Shown here: one piece after another, positions 36,244 to 50,124 of the stretch | How the letters are laid out: the number at the start of each line of letters is the position of its first letter | Numbering within the stretch: the first letter of the stretch is position 1 | Assembly (NCBI GenBank): GCA_009746045.1 | Contig: RPFO01000097.1 | Location: forward strand, 314,501-378,500 | Reading direction: 5' to 3' | DNA from: Mesostigma viride | Lineage: Eukaryota > Streptophyta > Mesostigmatophyceae > Mesostigmatales > Mesostigmataceae | Length of the DNA stretch: 64,000 nt | Position numbers and translations under genes: made by a program | The notes under the pieces: generated by a model | The model's input: only the letters and a program-made list of their open reading frames with translations | Databases searched by the model: none | Told to the model about the DNA's origin: nothing

Positions 36244-36814
36244 ATGACGTGTTCCATATTCAAGGTTGATACCTGCACGCGCAGCAGCAGCACAATTCGC
36301 ACCCAAGCCACGTTACATTTATATGGGCGGGTGGATTCGTACCTGGGCGCGAAAGGGCGCGGTCACCCTTCCAAGCGACTACGGCCTAGCTTTCTCTCGT
36401 CACTACGCCGCATCAATCGATGCCCGCGCGAGCCTCGTCCTGCCCGACAATTCGCACTCGTGTGCTCGCTGTCCGAGGATGGAGCGAGTGCGTCTCACGG
36501 CTCCCCGTCTACGGACTGGGCAGACGGTGGTGTCGAGAGGCTGGGTAATGGTTGGGGGGGCGCCGTGGCAGCGCATGCCGAGCAGGGACACGTCACGGGC
36601 TCGCCCGTACCGGGGACGGCCGTGGAGAACCACGGGGCCTCCGCACATGACCAGACGAATGGCGAGAGTGCTACGTTGAGCACCGACGCGGCGCCGTCCT
36701 CGCCTTTACCTGGCCCGGCAGACACTGCCAGCTCAGCACGCGCAGCCCCCTCGCCTTCGGTGCCTAAGGAGCGGCGCGCCAGTGGCATGCCGCCCTCCCG
36801 ACGGAAACAGGATG
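36244..36814 (+). CDS. SLH gene exon 1 (transit peptide and linker)
   Basis: From the first in-frame ATG to AACAGGATG|GTATGG. Basic, Ser-rich first ~75 residues, then an Ala/Ser/Pro/Gly linker. Ends in phase 1 (single G). A later start or an upstream exon cannot be excluded. Confidence 0.65.
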
Positions 36815-39800
36815 GTATGGTCCTAGCCTCTTAGCGCGGGTGCGCGGGTCTCCTGTGTACCCCTGACGTGTCCGCTACGTGCTGGGTGCTGTCCTCCCCC
36901 TCGCCGCAAACAGGATCACACAATGCCAGTCTTGCTCCGATGTTGTAACTAGGTTTTGGATGAGGGGGAGGCCTTGGGGGAGGGGGGGGGGGAGACGTTG
37001 ATTTCTTCTTCTGTCCATAGTCACCTGTGGTAGCCTGCTATCATGATTCTGTAATTAGTCACCCGTGGTAGCCTGCTATCCTGTGTACCCCTAATAATTA
37101 CCCCAGGCCTTCCCGTCCTGGATCGGGGCCATACAGAAGGGGGCCCCTTGGCATTCATTGCTTTCGCGCTTTAACAAACATGGAATCAGAATGTAGGTAG
37201 TATTTTGTGTCTGTGTAGTTATGTCGGTGGGAGAGGGTTCCCTATCTGACCGGTTCAAGTCAGAATATGGGTTGGGGACTTCGTGCAGTACTTGAATGCA
37301 TGCTCCCCCTTGAACTGGTTGGTCGTGTGATATACCTGCACATGGCCGTGTGATATACCTGTACATGGTCGCGTGGTTCGCTATTGATACTTGGTGCCTC
37401 CCCAGGAGTGCTTCTTGAGCTGATGGGATGCTTTGGGTTTGCTTGCCATTTCCGCAGCGGCTGACGCTCCCCACGCTCCTGTGACGGTGTCCGATGCCAG
37501 GATTATGTGCCCATATGCCAGACCCTTCTCGTGTAGCATGTGCTGATATGCCAGGGCATCGCTCATCCATGATTCCACCCCCCCGTGGCCCCCTGCGGTC
37601 GTCCGCTGGGACCTTCGCGGGAACTCACTCCCATGCTTTTACACTCTTCCAATTTCTCTGGGGGGGGGACTCCGCCTACTGCCTCAGTTCGTTTTTTATC
37701 ATCTTACATCAAATGCCTGTGGCCAAGCGCAGGCAGCTTCCTGGGTTGCACGCTTGTCATCACAGCCATTTTTCCCCACCCAGTATTCAAGGATGTTGTT
37801 ACTTCCCTATACCCGGTCACTGTATCCGGTCACTATATCCGGTCCTTGTGTCGGATACTTGTGGGCGCAGGCACCTTTCTGGGCAACACACTCGCGCTGC
37901 TGCTCGCGGGCGGTTGCGCGCTGGCATTGGCAGGGAGCAGCGCCGTGCGGGGCGGTGAGTTATGTCGCAGGACCCCACCCACCCACCCCACCCACCCACC
38001 CACCCACCCACCCACCCACCCACTCCCTCCCTCTCTCTCTCTCTCTCTCTCTCTCTCTCTCTCTCTCTCTCTCTCTCTCTCTCTCTCTCTCTCTCTCCCT
38101 CTCTCTCTCTCTCTCTCTCTCTCTCTCTCTCTCTCTCTCTCTCTCTCTCTCGCTCTCTCTCTCTCTCTCTCTCTCCCTCTCTCTCTCTCTCTCTCTCTCT
38201 CTCTCTCTCTCTCTCTCTCTCTCTCGCTCTCTCTCTCTCTCTCTCTCTCTCTCTCCCTCTCTCTCTCTCTCTCTCTCTCTCTCTCTCTCTCTCTCTCTCT
38301 CTCTCTCTCTCTCTCTCTCTCTCTCTCTCTCTCTCTCTCCCTCTCTCTCTCTCTCTCTCTCTCTCTCTCTCTCTCTCTCTCTCTCTCTCTCTCTCTCTCT
38401 CTCTCTATCTATCTCTCTCTCTCTCTCTCTCTCTCTCTCTCACACACACACACACACACTCTTTGGCAGGAAGGGGGCATGGAAGTGGCGTAAAGCAGGG
38501 CGGTGCGGGAATCAATTAATTAATCAATGGGGCATGGGGCATGGGGCATGGGGCATGGGGCATGGGGCATGGGGCATGGGGCATGGGGCATGGGGCATGG
38601 GGCATGGGGCATGGGGCATGGGGCATGGGGCATGGGGCATGGGGCATGGGGCATGGGCCATGGGGCATGGGCCATGGGGCATGGGGCATGGGGCATGGGG
38701 CATGGGGCATGGGGCATGGGGCATGGGGCATGGGGCGTGGGGCGTGGGGCGTGGGGCGTGGGGCGTGGGGCGTGGGGCGTGGGGCGTGGGGCGTGGGGCG
38801 TGGGGCGTGGGGCGTGGGGCGTGGGGTGTGGGGCGGGGGGCGGGGGGCGGGGGGGCGGGGGCGGGGGCGGGGTGTGGGGCGGAGGGCGGGGGCGGGGGGC
38901 GGGGGCGGGGGGGGGGGCGGGGGCGGGGGCGGGGGGCGGGGGCGGGGGCGGGGGCGGGGGGCGGGGGCGGGGGGCGGGGGCGGGGCGGGGGGGGGGGCGG
39001 GGCGGGGGGCGGGGGGGGGGGGGGGGGGGGGGGGGGGGGGCGGGGGCGGGGGGCGGGGTGTGGGCGGGGTGTGGGGCGGGGGCGGGGGCGGGGGCGGGCG
39101 GGGGGCGGGGGCGGGGGGCGGGGCGGGGGCGGGGGCGGGGGCGGGGGGCGGGGGGGGGCGGGGGCGGGGGCGGGGGGCGGGGGGCGGGGGCGGGGGCGGG
39201 GGGCGGGGGGCGGGGGGCGCGGGGCGGGGGGCGGGGGGCGTGGGGTTCGGCATGAGGGGGGAGGATAATTCGGAGGCAAGAAACACGCGCGCGCACTTTT
39301 GGCAATTAGGGGACATGCAACGCGCCCTATTGGAAGCAGGGCGGGGAGGGAAGGTAAATAGGACTACTCACGACTATCTCAAGGAGTTATGCTCACGTGA
39401 CGCCCTATATGTGTAAATTGATCCATTACTCAATCTCAGCGAGGAGAGGCACTGTCACATGGGGTTGCTAGCATATTCAGGTAGGTACTTGGTAAGCGGG
39501 GGGGGTCAGGGTTTGGGGTAGATCCCGTGACGTTGCCAGGGTGCCATGTCTTGCAGCACTGCAACAGACGTAATGGCCACACGCAGCACAATGCGATATA
39601 CCTCACAAGCATGCATCGTCCACGAGAGAAGAGTGCATGCGGTGGAGCAGGGGAGAGTGGCTAGGGGAGGGAGGGGAAAATGTGAGCGCTGCATGCATCA
39701 TGGGGCGCTGCCCATGGGGTTGCTGCTCGGGGCTGCTCCTTCCCTCGCATTTTCTCTTGAACCAAGTCTCAACTGTGTCCTCTCCGCCTCTATCGACAGA

Positions 39801-49852: not shown

Positions 49853-50124
49853 TGCATGGGTGGATTGCACCCACTGATCTGAACCTGGCCAGCAAGTAAC
49901 GCTGCTGCCCAAGCATGGTTACTGCATATGACATAGCTACTAGTGGTACCTGCTTAGCGCCCAATCCCCTATGGAGTGCGTGGGATTTTGGCCATTTTCC
50001 CTGCGGCGTTGAATAGTAGTATGCGACATGGCTTATAATTAGGTTTTGTTTAGTTTTGTTTGCTCATTGCCGTGGCTACAATGAGCGTGGTTACAATAAG
50101 CTGCTGACTGGATGTTCTTTAGCA

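Follow-up and report, generated by a model that had tools for sequence, protein, structure and literature searches.

Direct copies of exon borders in the introns of an SLH-domain gene and neighbouring genes of Mesostigma viride, and their probable origin in small tandem duplications

We analyzed a stretch of 64,000 nucleotides from Mesostigma viride (assembly GCA_009746045.1, contig RPFO01000097.1, positions 314,501 to 378,500 of the forward strand; hereafter the window, whose coordinates are used throughout) and found that the introns of an SLH-domain gene within it carry short direct copies of the borders of their neighbouring exons. The copying of borders is real and wider than this gene alone. 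It is probably explained by frequent small tandem duplications, of which those that cross an exon border survive, since the junction on the exon side continues to work while the junction on the intron side decays. The main interpretive step of a preliminary description of this DNA, namely tandem duplication across splice junctions with the outer copy left as intron, is thereby supported.

The SLH gene occupies 36244..49852 on the forward strand, as do all of its features given below. Its ten exons, listed by hand, lie at 36244 (start uncertain)-36814, 37784-37954, 39901-40250, 41334-41422, 42247-42356, 43330-43450, 45424-45499, 46692-46806, 47463-48775 and 49601-49852. All nine introns have GT-AG ends, and the joined exons form a single stop-free frame of 1,055 codons, the last exon being taken in this test to one base before the end of the stop codon's upstream sequence. 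The encoded protein is a marginal match to the Pfam SLH family (PF00395; E-value 1.7e-4, 21.9 bits against a cut-off of 20.8).

We aligned each of the 18 splice borders of the gene to its own intron, and scored 60 dinucleotide shuffles for every border. At eight of the 18, the adjacent intron carried a copy that included 10-44 bases of the exonic edge. All 60 shuffles were exceeded at the donors of exons 3, 4 and 6 and at the acceptors of exons 4, 6, 7 and 8, and the acceptor of exon 5 gave a shuffle p of 0.07, with a longer match that scores 28. These eight are among ten borders that the preliminary description had named as copied, and each has a copy with at least 10 exonic edge bases and a score of at least 26. 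The other two fared less well: the exon 1 donor has a weak match (score 23, p 0.02 from 60 shuffles), and the acceptor of exon 2 lies within the range of the shuffles (score 19, p 0.20). A score of at least 24 was reached at 9/18 borders in direct orientation and at 0/18 in reverse complement, so that the earlier statement that nearly every exon edge is copied is too strong for the SLH gene, where about half are. A further match of exon 2 lay 81-100 bases inside the exon and was rejected as an edge copy, as were the matches at the acceptors of exons 3 and 9, which are repeat or pyrimidine matches with at most one exonic base.

The same score threshold was reached by 23% of intron-interior 50-mers in direct orientation and 5% in reverse complement (1,659 queries), and by 6% of 392 exon-interior 50-mers. 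Self-comparison of the whole region, with two large microsatellites masked, yielded 43 pairs, of which 30 are direct and 13 are inverted. The copies at the exon 4 donor and the exon 6 acceptor were among the strongest direct pairs. Repeats that are wholly intronic also occur; intron 3, for instance, has three units of 44 bp, and intron 6 has pairs rich in A+T.

The exon 4 donor copy (41474..41535) comprises 44 exonic and 18 intronic bases and is 95% identical over 62 bases at an offset of 95 (E-value 4e-22), with the GT changed to TT. A more diverged copy of the end of this exon, lacking the junction, lies at 41736..41760 (84% over 25, offset 350). Two copies accompany the exon 3 donor, at 40341..40378 (76% over 38, offset 105), which has an E-value of 7.5 in the whole-region comparison and beats all 60 shuffles, and at 40674..40706 (82% over 33, offset 434). 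The AG is kept in the copies of the exon 4 acceptor (41229..41254; 88% over 26, offset 89), the exon 5 acceptor (42146..42168; 83% over 23, offset 97) and the exon 7 acceptor (45328..45361; score 27, above all 60 shuffles), and reads AC in that of the exon 8 acceptor (46556..46586; 85% over 33). At the exon 6 acceptor there are three tandem units. The nearest (43102..43189) matches 43264-43353 at 80% over 90 aligned positions (E-value 5e-15) and keeps the AG, the middle one (42962..43072) matches 43090-43192 at 68% over 114 with an offset of 128 and has, by reading, a degraded acceptor, and the farthest copy (42899..42937; score 27, above all 60 shuffles) again keeps the AG. The donor of exon 6 has two copies with an intact GT, at 43670..43689 (90% over 20) and 43772..43787 (94% over 16). 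The stop-codon region of exon 10 likewise has the copy that had been described, at 49881..49902 (score 29, offset 47).

Separately from the border copies, exon 9 contains a perfect 30-bp tandem duplication of ten in-frame codons (47670-47734), which may be an instance of this process within an exon. Intron 2 holds approximately 400 bases of (CT)n and approximately 700 bases of G-rich short repeats (37974-39245).

We then surveyed 29 loci totalling 290 kb, four of which lie outside the contig of the window, using a simple gene finder written for the purpose. Three conserved genes served to train its model, and a single exon end among them was placed by hand. Seven intron-bearing genes with Pfam support provided 86 borders, all within approximately 235 kb of one contig: the SLH gene, a VTC gene (with SPX and DUF202), an NYD-SP28 gene, by reading of the dynein regulatory complex type, and genes for a protein kinase, a KH protein, an AMP-binding protein and an RRM protein, the exon sets of these last four being unedited output of the gene finder. 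An eighth product with Pfam support, a ferredoxin whose closest entries are named 'Ferredoxin, chloroplastic', yielded no border set; together with the protein of dynein-regulatory type, it would suit a flagellated green alga. The remaining frames in the fetched loci look transposon-like by eye, no family search having been made. The outer 24 bases of each exon served as the edge query, the bases 34-58 inside the exon as the inner query, and the flanking intron as the target. Edge 24-mers recurred at 30/86 borders (0.349), whereas inner 24-mers recurred at 1/82 (0.012; Fisher p 2e-9 for edge versus inner). The reverse complement of the edge recurred at 1/86, so that the copies have the direct orientation of small tandem duplications, and 24-mers on the intron side of the border recurred at 15/84 (0.179). 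With 30-mers and a threshold of 24, the corresponding counts were 25/86 for edges, 0/78 for inner queries, 0/86 for reverse complements and 14/82 for the intron side. Border copies were seen in six of the seven genes, with edge 24-mers recurring at 6/18 borders in SLH, 8/16 in VTC, 7/18 in the dynein-regulatory gene, 5/12 in the kinase and 3/8 in KH. Under a second definition, 37/86 borders carry an exon-bearing copy.

The window is rich in microsatellites, and the matches could in principle be chance similarity or stutter of the assembly. However, reverse-complement matches are rare, the main SLH copies beat 60 shuffles each, and stutter would not give the mean divergence of about 12% seen between copy and exon; this explanation is improbable in the extreme. 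Near-identical arrays such as that at the KH donor are the cases that would merit a closer look. The open frames and Pfam matches of the gene models would also argue against the copies being the real exons.

The anatomy of the copies points to duplication of DNA across the junction. Of 72 copies, 63 straddle the junction, and a straddling copy is found at 33/86 borders. At one VTC acceptor there are four junctions including the real one, spaced by 109, 101 and 110 bases, each with the AG and the start of the exon. Reading of the alignments showed head-to-tail homology across the whole unit at this acceptor, at the VTC stop codon and at the SLH exon 6 acceptor. The stop-codon region of VTC is copied downstream at offsets of 91, 213, 280 and 368, and more weakly at 452 and 834 (boundary of loci L003 and L004, window coordinate about -49995), a spacing similar to that of the acceptor array of the same gene. 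Stop codons were copied in both genes tested, VTC and SLH. This treatment of stop codons in the manner of splice sites places the process at the level of DNA, and what the copied sites have in common is that constrained sequence ends there. The copies hold intron beside exon sequence and so do not derive from spliced RNA. A border copy can also give birth to arrays. At the KH donor, near-identical copies follow one another every 83-84 bases, each with the last 30 exon bases and an intact donor (locus L006, about 3730-5090, reverse strand), and the copies of a dynein-regulatory acceptor are spaced 95-96 bases apart. In locus L016 (about 1536-3100), each unit of an array of 95-96-bp units carries a copy of the acceptor at 4020. 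At least eight copies occur at a single intron end.

These features suggest the following course of events. This region of the genome would frequently undergo small tandem duplications, many of them with a unit of about 100 bp, and those falling within exons would mostly be removed by selection. A duplication across an exon border, whether donor, acceptor or stop codon, would create two junctions, of which the one on the exon side would keep its signals and stay in use, leaving the protein unchanged because that junction is still the one used; that this is the site in use is inferred from the open frames. The junction on the intron side would become dead sequence that drifts and may be duplicated again into arrays, and repeated duplication of borders would lengthen introns from both ends. 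Break repair with fill-in synthesis may be what makes the duplications (cf. PMC8355091). Tandem duplication with the outer copy left intronic fits the direct-only orientation, the straddling of junctions, the full units seen at some borders, the uncopied exon interiors and the distribution of mismatches over codon positions.

With regard to the last of these, the best-scoring copies differ from their exons at 28/293 first, 30/295 second and 51/288 third codon positions (9.6%, 10.2% and 17.7%). The surplus at third positions has the size expected from synonymous change of the exon itself, and would fit a copy that drifts away from an exon under constraint. Splice dinucleotides are often retained, as had been stated earlier for several copies: GT is kept in 25/28 donor copies and AG in 24/33 acceptor copies. 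Nine of the 33 acceptor copies read AT, eight of which come from one array in a gene other than SLH, and AG is kept in 24/25 when this array is left aside. Such retention could mean that the copies are decoy or alternative splice sites under selection. This is unlikely, however, since about 78% retention is expected from an identity of 0.884 and the excess outside the array is modest. In addition, the centres of the alignments match better than their ends, and codon positions 1 and 2 change alike, at about 10%, with no clear constraint.

Several observations weigh against an origin in small tandem duplications followed by decay. The intronic part of the copies, although free to drift on both sides, matches at least as well as the exonic part does (833/916 = 0.909 versus 1502/1699 = 0.884); splice signals near the border, together with trimming of the alignments, may explain this. 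No gradient of age was found at the 18 multi-copy borders of the seven genes: the copy nearest to the exon was more similar than the farthest at nine, less similar at seven and equal at two, and the earlier impression that copies are better preserved nearer the exon was not borne out. The edge 24-mers of the AMP-binding gene were copied at 0/8 borders and those of the RRM gene at 1/6. Unrelated spacers follow the 62-base copy at the SLH exon 4 donor and a 58-base copy (offset 103) at another VTC acceptor; one clean tandem duplication does not account for these, which call for either a further event or an insertion of a more complex kind. Repair-mediated duplication with a spacer would place copies of nearby DNA at a break in either orientation; spacers are seen in some cases, and inverted copies hardly at all (1/86). 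Lastly, a uniform neutral simulation run near the observed density of interior repeats gave edge values of 0.16-0.24 and inner values of 0.12-0.14, compared to the observed 0.349 and 0.012.

Direct repeats are also common in intron interiors, and the borders are therefore part of a wider process of local duplication. Local direct repeats were found for 0.307 of 1,050 intronic 30-mers in three genes, as against 0.008 in reverse complement, and for 0.182 of 9,593 elsewhere. The density of interior repeats varies with masking, being 0.428 when pooled with arrays, 0.233 as a mean over 43 introns and 0.132 without arrays of at least three copies. The preliminary description had set its interpretation against the case that such short repeats are equally common in intron interiors. 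In part they are, the interior mean of 0.233 for 24-mers comparing with 0.179 on the intron side of borders; the border surplus is confined to the exon side, at 0.349. A uniform process of local duplication that is merely easier to see at borders, where the exon half does not drift, is a reading to be reckoned with, though we do not favour it. The many interior repeats speak for it, and the plain simulation comes as close as an edge value of 0.24; a smaller first simulation with other settings even gave 0.34, its interior density being higher, at 0.337, and its inner value 0.18. However, the 12-14% of exon-inner copies that this reading predicts compares with 1/82 observed.

The copied units reach only a short way into the exon. 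In a post hoc test we kept 27/37 borders, dropping nine whose nearest copy was more than 200 bp away and one inner-exon match. The exon part of the copied unit was 10-51 bases in all 27 pairs; the intron part was at least 57 bases at 14/14 acceptors and at least 51 at 12/13 donors, the other being 31. If the border were placed uniformly within the unit, the probability of exon parts all at or below 51 bases would be about 1e-5 for the 14 acceptors and 7.5e-5 for the 13 donors (200,000 draws). In this respect the copies depart from small tandem duplications with breakpoints independent of gene structure. Selection could cause the limit. At acceptors, splicing itself would demand such a pattern, as the downstream site depends on the inserted intron part for its branch point and pyrimidine tract, for which at least 57 bases would be enough; the limit at donors has no equally good reason.

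When the reach limit was imposed, the simulation gave an edge value of 0.072 with uniform duplication, 0.148 with a threefold border rate and 0.246 with a fivefold one, the observed value being 0.349; these figures come from a simple simulation with an assumed distribution of lengths. The simulated and observed values imply that breakpoints are not uniform, or that selection on breakpoints is strong. A border surplus of a few fold, either mutational or selective, is probable, and this falls short of proof of a hotspot. A sharper form of the tandem-duplication reading would have the surplus be mutational, with duplications starting preferentially at exon borders, for example through R-loops, steps in base composition or paired nicks close to a splice site. 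Plant studies have dealt with paired nicks as a source of tandem duplications. With the reach limit imposed, the simulation approaches the observed edge value only when the border rate is raised. A distance of 80-120 bp to the nearest copy with exon sequence is found at 17/37 borders as against 6/47 intron-internal events, two sets whose detection rules differ. However, 24-mers on the intron side of borders are not above interiors, intron-only events touching an intron end have this distance in just 4/20, and selection could also shape reach and spacing. Repeat distances inside introns were broad, with no clear 100-bp peak among 47 events or among the 20 at an intron end. A mutational preference of this kind is possible, but we would not expect it to prevail. 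We entertain, only tentatively, the broader proposal that exon borders are a preferred site of duplications of about 100 bp with at most about 50 exonic bases, that serial border duplication is a main route of intron growth, and that junction duplications, in so far as splicing ignores them, have left in each intron a record that can be dated.

The creation of introns by internal duplication has been the subject of earlier studies. Introns might be gained here by tandem duplication of an exon segment bearing AGGT, tandem duplication being reported to create introns (PMC4974935), or through mobile intron-like elements with target duplications. Opposite-edge similarity was nevertheless absent at a score of at least 22 (0/86 in 40- and 80-base comparisons, and 0/86 in reverse complement), no search for shared intron families having been made, and the copies hold the junction together with the intron's own sequence, with at least eight at one end. 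Gain of introns is thus a very unlikely source of the copies.

Among the other features of the window is the protein-kinase gene of the survey (16982..33354, reverse strand), with seven predicted exons in the border test and a Pfam Pkinase match (E-value 7e-19); an exon may be missing after the exon with HRDVKP. On the same strand, a copy of the acceptor of exon 18804-18896 with 47 exonic bases lies at 18955..19004 (score 70), and the nearest of at least four copies of the acceptor at 17083 lies at 17176..17214 (score 68; the others score 39, 31 and 30). The predicted kinase intron between 32329 and 21899 (reverse strand) contains an 8.6-kb array of approximately 245 copies of a 37-bp unit (22420-31066). 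Ten AACCCTA copies at 12908-12977 resemble an interstitial telomere repeat of the plant type. Frames at 50629-56255 (reverse strand) resemble a mobile element of the tyrosine-recombinase type, judged from the translated letters alone and with no family search made. Neither the Rfam scan nor the tRNA scan produced a match in the window.

Constraint on the parent exon makes every copy usable as a clock, and a single genome would suffice to measure the rate of junction-spanning duplication and the filter imposed by splicing. The copies are also a warning for gene finders, since ours ran past a copied exon edge in the dynein-regulatory gene. Small tandem duplication belongs to the known mutational classes, and its preference for borders is plausible though unproven. 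No report of serial splice-border copies at the density seen here was among the matches listed in our literature searches, which were mostly without subscription journals.

According to PMC8355091, break repair with fill-in synthesis yields small tandem duplications, and the copies described here resemble these as short, direct, head-to-tail duplications of a general mutational class. They differ in that many events lie at exon borders, some with unrelated spacers, and in being deduced here from sequence alone. Repair-mediated duplication of nearby DNA in vertebrates likewise gives short local copies that include splice sites, but in PMC2671141 partial exon/intron sequence is given for 4/824 human donor sequences, as compared to 30-37/86 borders here, the two counts being defined differently. 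The tandem genomic duplications of PMC4974935 are reported likewise to alter intron structure; there introns are gained, whereas opposite-edge similarity is 0/86 here and existing introns lengthen at their ends. Relatives of Chlamydomonas (PMC8226300) resemble the present case as green algae whose long introns have no settled explanation. In the matched passages of that report, which do not name splice-border duplication, the authors state that the advantage of long introns is unknown and that the driver of intron length is probably ancient. In the genes described here, steps of intron growth are readable in the sequence, and this bears on why green-algal introns are long.

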